Shown here: positions 19,441 through 25,322 of the stretch, piece by piece | Layout: each line of letters begins with the position of its first letter | Position numbering within the stretch: position 1 is the stretch's first letter | Origin: Archaeoglobus profundus DSM 5631 | Lineage (GTDB): Archaea > Halobacteriota > Archaeoglobi > Archaeoglobales > Archaeoglobaceae | Direction of reading: 5' to 3' | DNA: 64,000 bases | Assembly (NCBI RefSeq): GCF_000025285.1 | Contig: NC_013741.1 | Coordinates: forward strand, 496,001 to 560,000 | Made by a program: the position numbers and the translations under genes | The notes under the pieces: generated by a model | What the model was told of the DNA's origin: nothing | The model's input: only the letters and a program-made list of their open reading frames with translations | Databases searched by the model: none

Positions 19441-19515
19441 ATACTGGGCCATAAAGCTTACATAGATTTTGGAAAGAAACGCTTAAACTTGGTCCAGATT
19501 AAAAACAGCAGGACA

Positions 19516-20155
19516 ATGATAACGTACAAAATAAGGAGGTTCAACATAGAAGGGTTTGAGATAAGAGGGAAGAAGTATCTCAGCCCTGAAGAAGAGTTTC
19601 TACTTTCTAAGAAGGTTTTCGTGCAAGAGAAGGTTGACGGAAAGTTCACATGCAGGGATTTTGGAGATTTCTTAATTCTATGCGAAGACTTGAGGGACAC
19701 GCACACAATATACTACAAGAATTTGCCATCAAGGTTTCTGGGTTTTGACGTATATCAAAAGGATGAAGGATTTTTGGAGGTTAAGGAAGCTTACAAAATC
19801 ATGTTAGAGTACGGGATAATACCGGTTCCAATAATATATGTCGGCAAAGTCGATAAAGAAATGATAAAAAATTTCGTTCTCGAGAAAAACTCAGAATTCT
19901 TAACAGAAATAAATCCAAAAATGAGGGACATTGCAAAGGAAGTAGCTCCAGATATCGTCGGGAAAAAGAATTTCATAGAAGGTGTTGTCGTCAAGTATTA
20001 CGAGAACAACAGACTATACGCTGGAAAAGCCGTGAATCCAGCCTTTGAAAAAATAGGCCGGTAGATATGAAATGTACAAGCACAGGAACAGAATTACCCC
20101 TTGGAGCGAAGAAAAACTCAACAAATATTTTAGAAGAGTGTTTTCTTGGCTGTAG
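19516..20155 (+). pseudogene. RNA ligase-family protein gene with C-terminal frameshift
   Basis: The open frame from ATG 19516 encodes 182 residues of a nucleotidyltransferase-fold ligase: nucleotidyl lysine in EKVDGK (K39), motif III FLGFDVY (74-80), motif IV EGVVVKYY (155-162) and motif V AGKAVNPAFEK (169-179). It stops at 20064, but the +1 frame from about 20053 to the stop at 20155 encodes a further 30 or so basic residues (GRYEMYKHRNRITPW...) that look like a natural continuation. So one frameshift near GGCCGG separates the tail. All core motifs are upstream, so a shortened active enzyme is conceivable. It converges with the E1 gene. Confidence 0.6.
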
Positions 20156-20167
20156 ATCTTTATTTAT

Positions 20168-20968
20168 CTAGGATTCATCTAAGGCCGAACAAATCTCGCA
20201 ACGAGGATTTCTCTTCAAATTAGCCGTGCTGAATTTCATCTCTGCGAGATTTACTGAAATGTAGTTAGGTGGTTTTGAAATCTCGAAAAGTACATTAAAA
20301 GCTATCATAGCAGCGAGACTTGCCAAAAAACTTAGAGTTGGAGCAGGACTAACAGCGTAACCTGTTTTCATGCTTAAATCTACTTTATCGCTAAGATTTG
20401 TTTTGTCAAGTACCGGCAACTCGAAGTAACTACACCTGAGGCATGCAGTCTTACCGGGAATTATTAACCTTACATGTCCCCTTAATCCATCCGTCGTAAA
20501 CCCAGTATCAATCATTGTGGTATTAGTTTCCACACAAATGTCGTTAACGTAAATTCTAGAGCTTGTATTGTCAGTAGCAGTTACAACCAAATTTGCTTCT
20601 TCTACAATTTCTTGTAAGTCAATTTCAAGAACATTCTTTGGTATTGCCTCAATTCTCACGCTATGGTTTTCAAATATCTTCTCGAGCTTACGCTTCAAGA
20701 TCTCGGCTTTATTTTTTCCTATATCGCAGACTTCAAATCCATCTCTGTTTAGATTTTCAATTTCGACTATATCATTGTCTATCAAGACCAAATTGCCGAT
20801 ACCTAGTCTTGTAATCAGCCTCGCAATTGGATTGCCTAAGCCACCACAGCCGACGATTATTACCTTCATTTCTCTCGCTTTTTCGTAGCTCCACCCCTTT
20901 AGACCTATGAGTCTGCTAAACTCTCTCGGAGTCGAATCACTAGAAGAGGAAAAATTCGGTAACGCCAT
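20168..20968 (-). CDS. E1-like ubiquitin-activating/ThiF-MoeB family adenylyltransferase
   Basis: A 266-residue ThiF/MoeB/E1 protein. The ATP loop is VGCGGLG (39-45), the ribose aspartate is in IDNDIVE (64-66), the ENLNR arginine finger region is 71-75, and ATDNTSSR is 131-138. Paired cysteines CLRC (176-179) and CEIC (257-260) form the usual structural zinc site. The crossover region (about 195-215), where ThiF and E1 enzymes carry the catalytic cysteine, has none. It should adenylate the C-terminus of a ubiquitin-like protein; how a thioester forms is unclear. Last gene of the ten-gene operon, overlapping the previous gene by 29 bases. Confidence 0.88.
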   Translation of the reverse strand: MALPNFSSSSDSTPREFSRLIGLKGWSYEKAREMKVIIVGCGGLGNPIARLITRLGIGNLVLIDNDIVEIENLNRDGFEVCDIGKNKAEILKRKLEKIFENHSVRIEAIPKNVLEIDLQEIVEEANLVVTATDNTSSRIYVNDICVETNTTMIDTGFTTDGLRGHVRLIIPGKTACLRCSYFELPVLDKTNLSDKVDLSMKTGYAVSPAPTLSFLASLAAMIAFNVLFEISKPPNYISVNLAEMKFSTANLKRNPRCEICSALDES

Positions 20969-21233
20969 CTTTCACGACCTCCTCCATATTTAATCTAACT
21001 TTCATCCCGTTCCTAGTTACAGTGAAGTTTGTAAACTCAAAATCTAGGAAACCATTCACGACTACACTTTTAAACCACTCGGAGTACGTAATCGCATTTT
21101 TTACGAAAAAGTACAATGGTACTTTGTTCTTATATTTCAAGGAAACTACTCTCGGTTTTCGGTAGTATATTATAGATTCTTCTTCATTTAGGTCATAAAC
21201 TCCAAATAACTGAGATTCGCTATCTGCTATCAA
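20940..21233 (-). CDS. small unknown protein between JAMM and E1 genes
   Basis: A 97-residue protein I do not recognise. It is rich in aromatic residues and predicted beta strands (for example the segments around residues 28-45 and 58-82) with an acidic N-terminus, and ends in FFLF. It overlaps the JAMM gene by 14 bases and the E1 gene by 29 bases, so it is certainly translated as part of the operon. It has no Gly-Gly tail, which argues against its being the conjugated modifier. A compact beta fold acting as an adaptor is a guess. Confidence 0.6.
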   Translation of the reverse strand: MIADSESQLFGVYDLNEEESIIYYRKPRVVSLKYKNKVPLYFFVKNAITYSEWFKSVVVNGFLDFEFTNFTVTRNGMKVRLNMEEVVKDGVTEFFLF

Positions 21234-21768
21234 TATGGTACTTAACTGTGGCTTTTTCGAGGTAATCCGCAGAAGCTAGAGTGTAAACTCTGAATGGTAT
21301 ACCATATTTGTAGAAGATCTTGACTTTCACTTTAGAAAAAATTTCGTGATCTTCAACAACTTTAAGCCTAATCTGCTTACCGTTTTTATTGAACGCTTTA
21401 ATTTCGAACTTTTTTGGATCCATAACTAAAGCTATCCTGTTAAGTTTGCTTTTCCTTAAGTTTGCGAGATCCGTGCTTGAAAGATACGCTCCAAATCCAA
21501 CGTGAGTGTGGATAGTCCCTAAATTTTCGAGCCCTGCTGGTAGGAAAGAGTTTTCAAGCTGATTGTAAGTTACACTTACAGGAGACGAGGTTCCCTTGTA
21601 TTTGAATATGCTCAAGACCAAGTAGCCTTCATCAGTTACCACTCCAACCAGTGCTCCCACTATTTCATTTTCTCCCGCTTTTACAGCAGCTTCGTAGAAG
21701 TCTAGTAGCTCAGTTTCACTTACTAGCACATACTCACAGTTAGCTCTACAAAAGTTTAAGAGGAACAT
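21220..21768 (-). CDS. JAMM/MPN-domain metallopeptidase (deubiquitinase-like)
   Basis: A 182-residue JAB/MPN protein with a complete JAMM motif: glutamate in NEIVGALVG (E35), then HTH (H87, H89), seven residues, S97-S-T-D100. These residues bind zinc and activate water in Rpn11, AMSH and CsaB-type isopeptidases. It starts at the base after the Ubl-E2 stop. In this operon it would process a ubiquitin-like precursor or remove it from targets. The C-terminal third, after about residue 130, is extra to the minimal domain and not recognised. Confidence 0.9.
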   Translation of the reverse strand: MFLLNFCRANCEYVLVSETELLDFYEAAVKAGENEIVGALVGVVTDEGYLVLSIFKYKGTSSPVSVTYNQLENSFLPAGLENLGTIHTHVGFGAYLSSTDLANLRKSKLNRIALVMDPKKFEIKAFNKNGKQIRLKVVEDHEIFSKVKVKIFYKYGIPFRVYTLASADYLEKATVKYHIDSR

Positions 21769-22542
21769 CTACTCACCCCTTAGAATTCTTAAAATGTCCG
21801 ACATTTCTCTGAGTGTTGTAGATTTCTCCCCTAAAGCTTCGTATCCGATCCTGATCCAAGGAAACACAACATCCGAAATATAGTGTGCTATGCCTAGCCT
21901 CCCAGTCCAATTCTGAAGATACTTTTTATCACCACATACCACAATTATTTTCTTACCATTAATGTAGAACGGATAGACATGTTTGTGAATATTTGAGGCC
22001 ATGTATTTGTCAAAAAATCTTCCACGAAGAGTTGCCTCGGGATGGACAAGTGGGTATGCTGGCGGTAAGAATACAAGCAGTTCAACTGATCCATAGCTTC
22101 CCACTCTTATACATCCCTTAACCGTCTTTAAACCTTCATACGTATAAAACGCTGGATTTACATAAGCAAACCCAGGGTTGTTTCTCCCTATCAGGTTGTT
22201 AAGCATTTTAATCCTGACGATTTCTTCCCTTGCCCTTTCATTCCACTTCGGACTGTTTACTTTAACATTCCTCAAAAAATTGGGGAAATCAGGGATTATA
22301 CCCTGATCCCCCTCACTTAAAACCCTAAATCTAGTTTCTCCTGTCTCTCTTACAATATCTCTGACTGTCTTGCCAGGATCAACTGGTAATCCAGAAGTTG
22401 TGGCGATAATTGACTCTCTCCACTTTTCGGGAGGCACAGCTCTCATACCGACCTCAAAAAGCCTTTCATTTGGGTTTGCCTCAACATATATTTCCTCTCC
22501 ATCTACCTCCAAAATTAAGGGTATTGCCCCCATACCGAACAC
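21769..22542 (-). CDS. ubiquitin-like domain fused to E2/UBC-fold conjugating enzyme
   Basis: A 257-residue two-domain protein. Residues 7-76 look like a beta-grasp ubiquitin-like domain (ILEVDGEEIYVEANPNERL...KTVRDI...FRVLSEG). Residues 100-240 look like an E2: strand then proline turn FLPPAYPLVHPEA (158-170), then GKKIIVVCGDKKYLQNW, where Cys203 and Trp212 fall at the places of the E2 catalytic cysteine and the tryptophan after it. There is no internal Gly-Gly after the Ubl part, so that domain is probably a docking module rather than the modifier. GGGGGTG precedes the ATG. It should accept the activated modifier from the E1. Confidence 0.82.
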   Translation of the reverse strand: MFGMGAIPLILEVDGEEIYVEANPNERLFEVGMRAVPPEKWRESIIATTSGLPVDPGKTVRDIVRETGETRFRVLSEGDQGIIPDFPNFLRNVKVNSPKWNERAREEIVRIKMLNNLIGRNNPGFAYVNPAFYTYEGLKTVKGCIRVGSYGSVELLVFLPPAYPLVHPEATLRGRFFDKYMASNIHKHVYPFYINGKKIIVVCGDKKYLQNWTGRLGIAHYISDVVFPWIRIGYEALGEKSTTLREMSDILRILRGE

Positions 22543-22545
22543 CCC

Positions 22546-22728
22546 CTAACGAATTAAACTCACAATCGAAGGAATTACACTCTTAATTCGAACAACCCAG
22601 AATGTCCAGACCTGTTTAGCAAACGATATCAGTTCTGGTATCGTTAAGTTCGTTGGGACGTCGACTTTACCTTCTATGATCGGTATAGCGATTGCCAAAA
22701 AATAATGAAAATCAGAATCTTCTTGCAC
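22546..22728 (-). CDS. small hydrophobic protein of the Ubl operon
   Basis: A 60-residue protein with probable GTG start at 22728 preceded by GAGGGGTG. It has an acidic N-terminus (MQEDSD), a hydrophobic stretch at about 9-18 and a second amphipathic to hydrophobic segment at about 38-59 ending in SLIR. Three bases separate its stop from the Ubl-E2 start. It is not recognised; a short membrane-associated peptide is plausible from composition. Confidence 0.5.
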   Translation of the reverse strand: MQEDSDFHYFLAIAIPIIEGKVDVPTNLTIPELISFAKQVWTFWVVRIKSVIPSIVSLIR

Positions 22729-22745
22729 ATGGCATTACACCCCTC

Positions 22746-22886
22746 TTATAGCCCTCTCCACCATTCTATGTCATCTTCGCATGGGCGTGCTGTCCTTCGG
22801 TTTCTTATTTTTCTCAGAACCCATACTATCAGCACGGTCAGTAAGAGTCCTGCTACAGTTGCGGCAAAAATTAAGTTGGAGTTCAT
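22746..22886 (-). CDS. 46-residue single-pass membrane protein
   Basis: A short frame with ATG at 22886 and TAA at 22746 encodes a protein that begins MNSNLIFAATVAGLLL, has one clear membrane helix (about residues 5-24), then a basic stop-transfer cluster (RKIRNRRTAR) and an acidic/aromatic tail with EDDIEWWRGL. A GGGGTGAGG ribosome site lies just upstream, and the gene begins five bases after the FtsZ-like stop. The Trp-rich cytoplasmic tail looks like a docking peptide. Function unknown. Confidence 0.6.
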   Translation of the reverse strand: MNSNLIFAATVAGLLLTVLIVWVLRKIRNRRTARPCEDDIEWWRGL

Positions 22887-22891
22887 ACTCC

Positions 22892-24088
22892 TCACCCCCT
22901 TACAAAGTTCTCCAAAACCTCGTCATCGACCAATCCTGTACCAAGGTAGTTCTCTAGTTCAGGAATAGCCTCATCAACAATCTTTCTGTGGTTGTGAAGA
23001 AAGTGCCTGATTGCCATTTCGTTACCCTTCAGGAAGGCAGTCACGGAGATTGGGATGTACTTTATTGGCAGGTGAAATCCGTCAGCTATAATATTTTCTG
23101 CAAACTCAAACTCCTTGCCGAAGATTTCTAGATCTACAATTTTAACCGGAGAAATTATCGAGATTCTCACGAGTTCGGAATCTCTTGCATGGAACACGGC
23201 TCTCGCGTATAGCGAAGTAGAATCGAAGTCAATAGCCCTTTTGGCGAGTTTGAATATATCCTCTCCACCGATGCTCTTTACCCTAGGTAAATGTGTGATA
23301 GATCTGTATTCTGTGTTCGTTGTAAAGAATCCTCCTCTTCCGATGATGTCTGTCAGATCTATTCTGTTAATTCCTGCCTTGTATTTCGAAAGCAAGAGTG
23401 TCATTATCGTGTTGAGTATATTTAGATCGCTCAGCTTTTTAAGTGTTGGTTCTCTATCGAAGTAGCTCAAAATTAGGCTACGTCTGTCTCCAACTTCGTT
23501 CATTAGCTTTAGCGTGACGAGAATCGAATTGGCAATTTGTGGAGCATAGTCACCCCTCGAAAGGCTTACGTAATCGATTATCTGAGCTTTACTTTCAATG
23601 CTCCTTACAAGTTTCTTAACCTCGTTTGAAACTGCTAGTGCGTAACCAGAAGACGTCCCGCCTGCGAATATAAGCTCGATAAATGTAGATGGTACTACTC
23701 CGTACTTGGATTTAAGCTCGTTTAAGTATTTGTTTATCTTAAAGCTAATCTCTGCGGACATTGGACGAATTGTCTCATAACCGACCATCGCGTTTTTTCC
23801 ACAGCCGTCTATACCTAAACCTATTACCAGCGCCGAACGGAAGCAGTGCTTAACTTTTTCAAAGACGGCCGATGCTACATTATCGTCGGCTAAAATACAT
23901 ATCAAGTGAGTGTATTTCCTGAGTATTGCCGGAAGCTTTGTGGTGACAAGGTTAGCAGATTCATCTCCAACTGATGTTAGAAAGTAGCCATTGGACCACA
24001 TGTTTCTCCATTCCGGTGGCTCGTAGATTTCTTTGCCAAACGATTCTGGCTTTATATTGAAAACCGTCCTCACAAACATCCTCATCAC
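22892..24088 (-). CDS. divergent FtsZ/tubulin-superfamily protein
   Basis: A 398-residue protein resembling FtsZ/tubulin. The segment ELIFAGGTSSGYALAVSNEV has AGGTSSG (142-148) in place of the tubulin GGGTGSG phosphate loop (T4), with the helix after it. Before it come GLGIDGCGKNAMVGYE (90-105) as a T3-like region and VIG-type strands; after it, NSILVTLKLMNEVGDRRSLIL fits the guanine-binding helix H7 region. The N-terminal T1 loop is degenerate (SVGDESAN). It overlaps the preceding membrane-protein gene by ATGA, so the two are translationally coupled. A polymerising GTPase tied to a ubiquitin-like system is suggested; sequence divergence leaves some doubt. Confidence 0.68.
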   Translation of the reverse strand: MMRMFVRTVFNIKPESFGKEIYEPPEWRNMWSNGYFLTSVGDESANLVTTKLPAILRKYTHLICILADDNVASAVFEKVKHCFRSALVIGLGIDGCGKNAMVGYETIRPMSAEISFKINKYLNELKSKYGVVPSTFIELIFAGGTSSGYALAVSNEVKKLVRSIESKAQIIDYVSLSRGDYAPQIANSILVTLKLMNEVGDRRSLILSYFDREPTLKKLSDLNILNTIMTLLLSKYKAGINRIDLTDIIGRGGFFTTNTEYRSITHLPRVKSIGGEDIFKLAKRAIDFDSTSLYARAVFHARDSELVRISIISPVKIVDLEIFGKEFEFAENIIADGFHLPIKYIPISVTAFLKGNEMAIRHFLHNHRKIVDEAIPELENYLGTGLVDDEVLENFVRG

Positions 24089-24867
24089 CTCAACAACCTA
24101 AAATTCGTTTGAGCAAATTCTTCCTCCTCCTTAGGCAACTTATTAGCCAGATAGTACCTCCAGACAAAGACTGCCGTGCCAGCGATTAATGCTAAAATCA
24201 CTACAGCCAAAATCGGAGACGAGTTGTCAGGCTCTGACACGGTTAGTAATCCCTCTATTTCGTTTAAAATTGCATTTGCTTCTTCCAGTTGCCCGTCTTC
24301 CAGCGTACTTTTAGCAATTCTGAACTTCTCCTCGATGATTAGCTGAAGTCTTTCTGGAATTGCACTCTTGACTTTTTCGTATTTAGCATAAAGTTCTCCG
24401 TACCTTTTCAACAACTGTAATCGTTCAGATTGGGTAGTGGACTTATCTCTCGTCGTCTTTTGCGGAGTTAGTGTAAGTTCTTTTTGGATAGAAGGGGAGT
24501 CGATACGGTAAGCATTTGGAAATATGACTGCCAATGTTTCTGCATCAGGCATATCACCTATTATTGTAATCTCGACGGTTTGGCCCTTTGAAATTTTGAA
24601 ATCGATTGTGTCTGACTTGATTGTATTGTATGGTACACTCTCTTTCGTTAAAACATCAACTACCTTAAACGTCGGATTCTTGAGCTTTGTGTATACTTGG
24701 ACACTCTCGTCTTGTTGTCCCAAGATAGTTACGTAAATTCCAACTACATCACCAACTGTCGGATTTTCTGGTCTGACTTTTGCACTCACGACAAGTGGCT
24801 CCGCTGCACAAGCTATGGGTAGAATAACTATTGCCATTACTACAGCCAAAAACTTAGCCCAATACAT
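24085..24867 (-). CDS. exported, C-terminally membrane-anchored protein
   Basis: A 260-residue protein starting at ATG 24867, set by GGAGGTGG just upstream (a longer frame to 24891 has no such site). Residues 1-22 form a signal peptide ending ACAA (the cysteine at 20 could also be a lipidation site). Residues 24-133 are beta-rich with an immunoglobulin-like look (VVSAKVRPENPTVGDVV). Residues 146-208 are helical, probably coiled coil. One membrane helix at about 218-238 precedes a short cytoplasmic tail (KLPKEEEEFAQTNFRLLR). The outside-facing domain and inside tail, coupled to the FtsZ-like gene, suggest a membrane tether. Confidence 0.7.
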   Translation of the reverse strand: MYWAKFLAVVMAIVILPIACAAEPLVVSAKVRPENPTVGDVVGIYVTILGQQDESVQVYTKLKNPTFKVVDVLTKESVPYNTIKSDTIDFKISKGQTVEITIIGDMPDAETLAVIFPNAYRIDSPSIQKELTLTPQKTTRDKSTTQSERLQLLKRYGELYAKYEKVKSAIPERLQLIIEEKFRIAKSTLEDGQLEEANAILNEIEGLLTVSEPDNSSPILAVVILALIAGTAVFVWRYYLANKLPKEEEEFAQTNFRLLR

Positions 24868-24891
24868 TCTAACCACCTCCGTTTTACCCAA

Positions 24892-25013: not shown

Positions 25014-25322
25014 TCAACTAAGGTCTTTAAGAGATCGACCAACTTCTGTTTGATAAGTCCATTGAACAGAAAATCTCTCTAGTTTGTTATACCTCGGAAA
25101 CAATACAAGCTTAAGCAAGAATTCGTAGTAATCTATGCATGATAACGCAAATTTCTCTAAAACAAATTCGACATCTTCAAGCTTTACGCTACCCAGATCT
25201 CTTTGAATAGCTTCTCTGGCAAATAAGAGTGCTTTAAATACGATGAAGCGCGTTGGATCTTCTTCAATTTTCCTAAAAACTTCCTCTATAAACTCTTCAT
25301 AATCTACCATATCCGACATCAT
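25014..25322 (-). CDS. small acidic helical protein of the Ubl operon
   Basis: A 102-residue protein, not recognised. The N-terminal 80 residues are acidic and predicted mostly helical (DYEEFIEEVFRKIEEDP; VKLEDVEFVLEKFAL), ending in a more polar tail. A strong GGGGGTGAT lies just before the ATG. It sits upstream of the membrane-anchored protein on the same strand after a 120-base gap. It could be an adaptor or substrate of the conjugation system; nothing in the sequence says which. Confidence 0.5.
   Translation of the reverse strand: MMSDMVDYEEFIEEVFRKIEEDPTRFIVFKALLFAREAIQRDLGSVKLEDVEFVLEKFALSCIDYYEFLLKLVLFPRYNKLERFSVQWTYQTEVGRSLKDLS

Follow-up and report, generated by a model that had tools for sequence, protein, structure and literature searches.

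A predicted Ubl-E2 fusion protein with a UFC1-like E2 domain in a conserved gene set of Archaeoglobaceae

What does a ubiquitin-like (Ubl) domain do at the N-terminus of an archaeal E2, and to which conjugation machinery do the two belong? In 2010 archaeal E2s had not been found (PMC2948915), and in 2015 UFM1 was described as absent from archaea and bacteria (PMC4327156). By 2023 UFM1 and UFC1 were reported to be exclusively eukaryotic, with prokaryotic relatives known for UBA5 and UFL1 (PMC10183829), which raises the question of where the modifier and the E2 of the UFM1 pathway came from. Our literature search returned nothing that contradicts a eukaryote-only UFM1 and UFC1; preprints and subscription papers lay outside its scope, and an earlier description is possible. 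Here, we analysed a gene for such a fusion protein in a 64,000-nucleotide stretch of an Archaeoglobaceae genome (the window, to which all coordinates refer unless a locus is named).

The fusion gene and its neighbours

The Ubl-E2 gene occupies positions 21769..22542 of the minus strand and encodes 257 amino acids from a GTG start; the initial annotation had placed the ORF exactly and given no strand. A Shine-Dalgarno-like stretch (GGGGGTG) lies 6 nt before an ATG at 22533, which is probably the true start rather than the GTG. Archaeoglobus sp. GB_MAG3_049 (L003 below) encodes a homologue with 60% identity (L003:2963-3736), and the two genes differ by 0.32, 0.21 and 0.59 at codon positions 1, 2 and 3. 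Given this identity, the shared gene order and the codon-position differences, the ORF is more than a product of chance: it is real and under purifying selection. The gene set is present in two of the 57 genomes of the order and two of the 392 of the phylum, namely the window genome and that of L003. Plasmid searches (tblastn) with the Ubl-E2 and with the tubulin-like protein of the set gave zero matches, viral contig scans with the same two proteins gave none, and an Rfam scan found no match. A G001 match was rejected as chance; it is interrupted by stops.

In both genomes the set comprises, in the same order, genes for a helical 102-aa protein, a membrane protein, a tubulin-like protein, two small membrane proteins, the Ubl-E2, a JAB protein and an E1, all on the minus strand of the window. 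Its core proteins are 45-72% identical between the genomes, with the differences concentrated at third codon positions. The 102-aa protein at the head (25014..25322; 35% identical to L003:188-598) is followed by a 268-aa protein with a signal peptide, an extracellular beta domain, a coiled region and a C-terminal TM segment (24085..24891; 45% identical to its L003 homologue) and by a 398-aa protein (22892..24088) that is likewise confined to these two genomes. We tentatively describe the latter as tubulin/FtsZ-like: it carries an AGGTSSG loop, Tubulin_2 matches below the cut-off (E 0.1), and FtsZ aligns in register at a Z of 0.6. Then come a 49-aa single-TM protein (22746..22895; 44 aa in L003) and a small secreted or TM protein (22546..22760), a remnant or frame-broken in the window and intact, with 67 aa, at L003:2734-2937. 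The frame of this signal-peptide gene changes at a T6 run, and a second frame break lies within about 1.5 kb; both breaks involve a single nucleotide and are lacking in L003; they may reflect sequencing error or decay.

A gene of the RNA_ligase family (E 7e-9) adjoins the operon on the plus strand (19489-20064). PADLOC matched its generic E1 and JAB models only, and the scanned neighbours included no recognisable defence genes. Because the upstream genes and the Ubl genes strictly co-occur (two genomes), the arrangement suggests that conjugation targets lie within the conserved gene set. CBASS Cap2, for comparison, acts on the cyclase of its own operon.

The two domains of the fusion protein

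The UFC1-like E2 domain spans residues 83-257 (21772..22296, minus strand, as for all features below). PPAYP at residues 160-164 (22051..22065) is the counterpart of the E2 PxYP turn, and Cys203 (21934..21936), aligned with UFC1 Cys116, is the predicted catalytic, thioester-forming residue. Exactly nine residues on stands Trp212 (21907..21909), in the C-x8-W spacing of UFC1 (C-x7-W in UBE2D2). Both the turn and the Cys-Trp pair were thus as initially annotated, and a check for variability of Cys203 among orthologues found Cys203 and Trp212 unchanged in 22 of 22 archaeal E2 sequences; Tyr163, Pro164 and His220 are invariant in the same alignment.

When a profile of two sequences (A1) was searched against 227 genomes of the Asgard phylum, it matched Asgard E2 domains at E-values of 7.5e-9 (best), 2.5e-8 and down to 6e-4. 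Four of these loci, and others besides, were independently matched by Pfam UFC1, with 12 genomes above the curated cut-off; for the E2 of L042, Pfam UFC1 gave 6e-10 versus 0.015 for UQ_con. A second profile (A5), made of the 22 archaeal E2s including that of the window and searched against the whole PDB, retrieved 26 UFC1 chains at 2e-10 to 2e-9, the next family being UBE2N at 0.025. In pairwise comparisons, for which the human UFC1 and UFM1 query sequences were letter-for-letter identical to PDB entries, the window and L003 E2s reached Z 6.1 and 9.1 against human UFC1, 2.7 and 4.8 against UBE2D2, and about 0 against UBC9. Against BilB, the E2 of the Bil (bacterial ISG15-like) systems, the archaeal E2s scored -0.7 to 0.5. 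In the tree, the archaeal E2s and UFC1 are separate from the canonical E2s (support 100/100), and the Archaeoglobaceae branch is long. The window protein itself has no direct match to Pfam UFC1 (PF08694), unlike its Asgard relatives, and scans of its E2 with Pfam, PADLOC and NCBIfam gave nothing above cut-off. On profile, alignment and tree evidence, we firmly assign the window E2 to the UFC1 lineage, related through Asgard intermediates. The E2 domain of the initial annotation is upheld by the profiles; it is not an ordinary ubiquitin E2 of the Caldiarchaeum/Asgard operon type.

The AlphaFold model of the Ubl-E2, run with two sequences, is reliable for the Ubl half only. In the E2 part pLDDT is mostly below 50, so the UBC fold rests on the profiles and not on the model, whose helices at 86-92, 206-211 and 214-236 and an extra one at 242-254 share these mostly low values. 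UFC1 itself is characterised by an extra N-terminal helix, a helix directly after the Cys, a long unbroken alpha2 and the lack of alpha3 and alpha4 (PMC8481289). No E2 chain is among the structural matches listed for the Ubl-E2 model, because these are taken up by the Ubl.

For the N-terminal Ubl domain (residues 5-81; 22300..22530), structure and sequence matches are both available. The modelled Ubl half (residues 1-80) has a pLDDT of mostly 60-89, and in VIA-align comparisons its top match was UFM1 (Z 10.6), which we count as tied with BilA (Z 9.7, 24% identity); the beta-grasp segment noted initially is supported by this model and these matches. By sequence the Ubl is nearer to BilA than to UFM1. 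BLOSUM45 alignments with BilA/DUF2604 gave Z 10.5-11.7 and end at the terminal glycine of BilA, and Pfam DUF2604 remained below threshold (E 0.015, and 0.0004 for the L003 homologue). The alignments indicate that the domain is clearly homologous to the BilA/DUF2604 modifier family. The initial claim of a Ubl domain joined to an E2 whose catalytic cysteine is conserved is thus supported.

At the junction of the two domains, the invariant Gly81 (22300..22302) is the proposed cleavage and conjugation point. Free Asgard Ubls, UFM1 and BilA, which ends in a single Gly or in Gly-Ala, have their C-terminal Gly in the aligned position. The junction reads SEGDQG followed by II in the window and ARGDQG followed by GI in L003, the conserved Gly being the first of the two in L003; the lack of Gly-Gly noted initially therefore holds for the window, but the L003 homologue does read GG. 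UFM1 has been described as unique in its Val-Gly, not Gly-Gly, terminus (PMC12355090); the window Ubl ends in ...DQG, not Val-Gly, and is hence not classed as UFM1. Its Asgard relatives also occur as free proteins of 87-92 aa, nearly all ending in ...VG (...VGL in L037), and in other Asgard operons the Ubl is joined to the E2, this glycine marking the junction. With UFM1 ending in Val-Gly, free Asgard Ubls ending at the Gly and BilA in a single Gly or Gly-Ala, the step from a missing Gly-Gly to an E1-docking module is not supported. Since the Asgard Ubls also occur free, ending in ...VG, and the fused Ubls keep this glycine (Gly81), what the fusion carries is most likely the modifier proper, in a precursor from which the JAMM protease of the operon would release it. 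We see no further candidate modifier in the operon. An archaeal JAMM protease, CsRpn11, processes a Ub precursor (PMC6043591).

Protease, activating enzyme and Asgard relatives

The gene for the JAB/MPN+ (JAMM) metalloprotease (21220..21768; Prok-JAB E 1e-6, above cut-off) begins at the base directly after the Ubl-E2 stop. Its metal site, E ... HxH-x10-D, is intact (EIVGALVG and HTHVGFGAYLSSTD), and the L003 homologue has an archaeal Rpn11-like protein as best PDB match (6fjv, E 1.3e-4). In L003 the counterpart of a 97-aa ORF (20940..21233) is the C-terminal domain of the JAB protein, encoded there by a single 281-aa ORF. At 21190-21265 of the window a shift of one nucleotide separates the two frames, and the split may be due to sequencing error, gene fission or frameshifting. 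AlphaFold modelled the JAB protein with this C-terminal domain at a pLDDT of 34. The idea of the 97-aa ORF as a second Ubl received no support from hhalign and was discarded.

Overlapping the 97-aa ORF is the gene for a 266-aa adenylating enzyme of the ThiF/UBA5/MccB type (20168..20968; ThiF E 3e-47), with Zn CxxC pairs present and MccB (3e-31) and UBA5 (1e-29) as nearest matches. At the position of UBA5 Cys250 it has Ala205 (20354..20356); L003 also has Ala, and 16 of 16 aligned Asgard E1s have Cys. The crossover region reads GYAVSPAPT in the window and GYAISPAPT in L003, both without cysteine, and the Asgard E1s keep the Cys of the KREGVCAASLPTT motif. Asgard E1s of such operons are clearly UBA5-like (2e-43 for L042), and the window E1 ends shortly past the Zn cysteines. 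In the E1 tree, which contains two wrong ORFs as own-genome rows, the window E1 was placed nowhere with support, and our reading of it rests on the catalytic-site alignment. By that alignment it has no equivalent of the catalytic Cys250, and we class it as ThiF/UBA5-related only. Lacking this cysteine, it cannot support the standard cascade of UFMylation, and the Ala in its place suggests direct transfer from adenylate to E2.

Among the Asgard loci L037-L055 we found operons of a UBA5-like E1, a JAB protein, a VG-ending UFM1-like Ubl and a UFC1-like E2, several with Ubl-E2 fusions. They are apparently undescribed in the literature searched, and these relatives of the operon look like a prokaryotic UFM1 pathway. 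A divergent cluster at L054:3523-10030 contains an 88-aa Ubl-like ORF ending in ...DQLGF and two adjacent E2-like genes; JAB and E1 are encoded on the opposite strand at a distance of about 3.5 kb, and a gene for an AAA-type ATPase is directly downstream. UFL1 was detected in 15 of the 17 Asgard genomes with the E2 versus 95 of 227 overall (Fisher p 6e-5, relatedness ignored). In 60 further genomes the archaeal E2 profile gave only 2 weak, partial matches, both among the 40 with UFL1. Since UFL1 occurs in 95 of 227 genomes, far more than have a detectable UFC1-like E2, it must have other work in Asgards.

The operon can be set against four known or newly found systems. It resembles UFMylation in its E2 of the UFC1 lineage (C-x8-W, and an extra N-terminal helix in the low-confidence part of the model), its Ubl of UFM1-like fold with a single-Gly end and its compact one-domain ThiF/UBA5-type E1. 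Unlike UFMylation, it has the Ubl fused to the E2, a JAMM protease in place of the UFSP cysteine protease and an E1 without a Cys250 equivalent or UIS/UBS tail, and UFL1 is absent from both Archaeoglobaceae genomes. With Bil systems it shares the Ubl homologous to BilA (DUF2604), the JAMM protease and the order Ubl-E2, JAB, E1 (BilA-B-C-D). It differs from them in an E2 unrelated to BilB by sequence, the fusion, an E1 without N-terminal extension and catalytic Cys, and the extra tubulin-like and membrane genes; with a BilB-type E2 missing, we do not class it as a Bil system. The Asgard operons likewise cluster UBA5-like E1, JAB, Ubl and UFC1-like E2, but their E1 has the catalytic Cys, their order is E1-JAB-Ubl-E2, their JAB proteins are longer and no tubulin-like gene was detected in them. 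The Caldiarchaeum ubiquitin operon, to which CsRpn11 belongs, is another archaeal E1/E2/JAMM conjugation cassette, but has a canonical UBC E2, a Gly-Gly ubiquitin and a RING E3, none of which occurs in the window operon.

A proposed pathway and its alternatives

Ubiquitin-like tagging would be the function of an operon for which we establish domain identities, the invariance of Cys203, Trp212 and Gly81, gene order, the conservation of every gene of the set in L003 and, through Asgard intermediates, the relatedness of the E2 to UFC1. We consider it likely that modifier and E2 are made together, as one self-contained precursor serving a reversible system of ubiquitin-like conjugation. The JAMM protease of the operon would cut after Gly81, leaving a Ubl with a single C-terminal glycine, which the compact E1, as expected of its family, would adenylate. 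As the E1 Ala suggests, Cys203 of the UFC1-like E2 may then attack the Ubl-adenylate directly, or another cysteine may relay the Ubl. We infer that the E1 does no more than adenylate and that the Ubl passes from the adenylate to Cys203, the least certain step of the mechanism. More speculatively, the E2 might pass the Ubl to a target, most likely one from its own operon or envelope complex (the tubulin-like protein or membrane proteins), and the JAMM protease might reverse the conjugation.

Against precursor cleavage stands the Ile that follows Gly81 in the window. Ile82, together with the missing Gly-Gly, fits a reading along the initial lines, in which the Ubl is never released and serves as a docking site for the E1 or as a regulator of the E2, while a separate modifier (such as a SAMP/MoaD-type protein encoded elsewhere in the genome) is conjugated. 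For recruiting UFC1, UBA5 moreover relies on additional sequences (PMC8481289); the window E1 has no such tail, and the tether could substitute for it. But the domain also has free-standing Asgard homologues whose chains stop at the conserved Gly, and it shares homology with BilA, a conjugated modifier. UFM1 functions without Gly-Gly (PMC12355090), and we see no further Ubl in the operon that ends in glycine; we regard docking as unlikely. To be taken seriously, although of no great probability, is the rival view that the operon is an archaeal Bil-type antiviral system which tags virus proteins and had its E2 replaced by a UFC1-like one. Homology of the Ubl to BilA/DUF2604, the identical gene order and the very patchy spread (2 of 392 genomes), as expected of a mobile defence cassette, would fit. 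However, the E2 scores Z ~0 against BilB, the E1 has no catalytic Cys, the conserved partners are tubulin-like and membrane proteins, and neither the PADLOC matches, confined to generic models, nor the neighbours scanned point to defence.

We give little credence to a decaying or non-conjugating operon, in which a former Ubl cassette serves adenylation or sulphur transfer or is being lost. An E1 without thioester Cys does recall MccB, which only adenylates, and the window has two frame breaks. Yet each break comes down to a single nucleotide and is absent from L003, in all core genes codon positions 1 and 2 change little compared to position 3, and both genomes preserve Cys203, Trp212 and the JAMM residues.

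Beyond the modifier-plus-E2 precursor itself, we tentatively propose, as a possibility somewhat short of even, that UFC1-type conjugation is pre-eukaryotic: an archaeal cassette, also found in Asgards, of UFM1-like, UFC1-like, UBA5-like and JAMM proteins would be the ancestor of UFMylation. The Archaeoglobaceae would then have a stripped-down variant, whose E1 lost its thioester Cys and whose fused E2 takes the Ubl from the adenylate. In archaea, a UFC1-lineage E2 is genetically linked to a modifier as well as to a JAMM protease and a UBA5/ThiF-type E1, and in Asgards to UFM1-like proteins with a Val-Gly end, so that the origin of the modifier and E2 of the UFM1 pathway can be tested directly with recombinant proteins. 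A fused Ubl-E2 and an E1 that lacks the thioester Cys point to a shortened cascade, which may show how E1-E2-Ubl relays are assembled.
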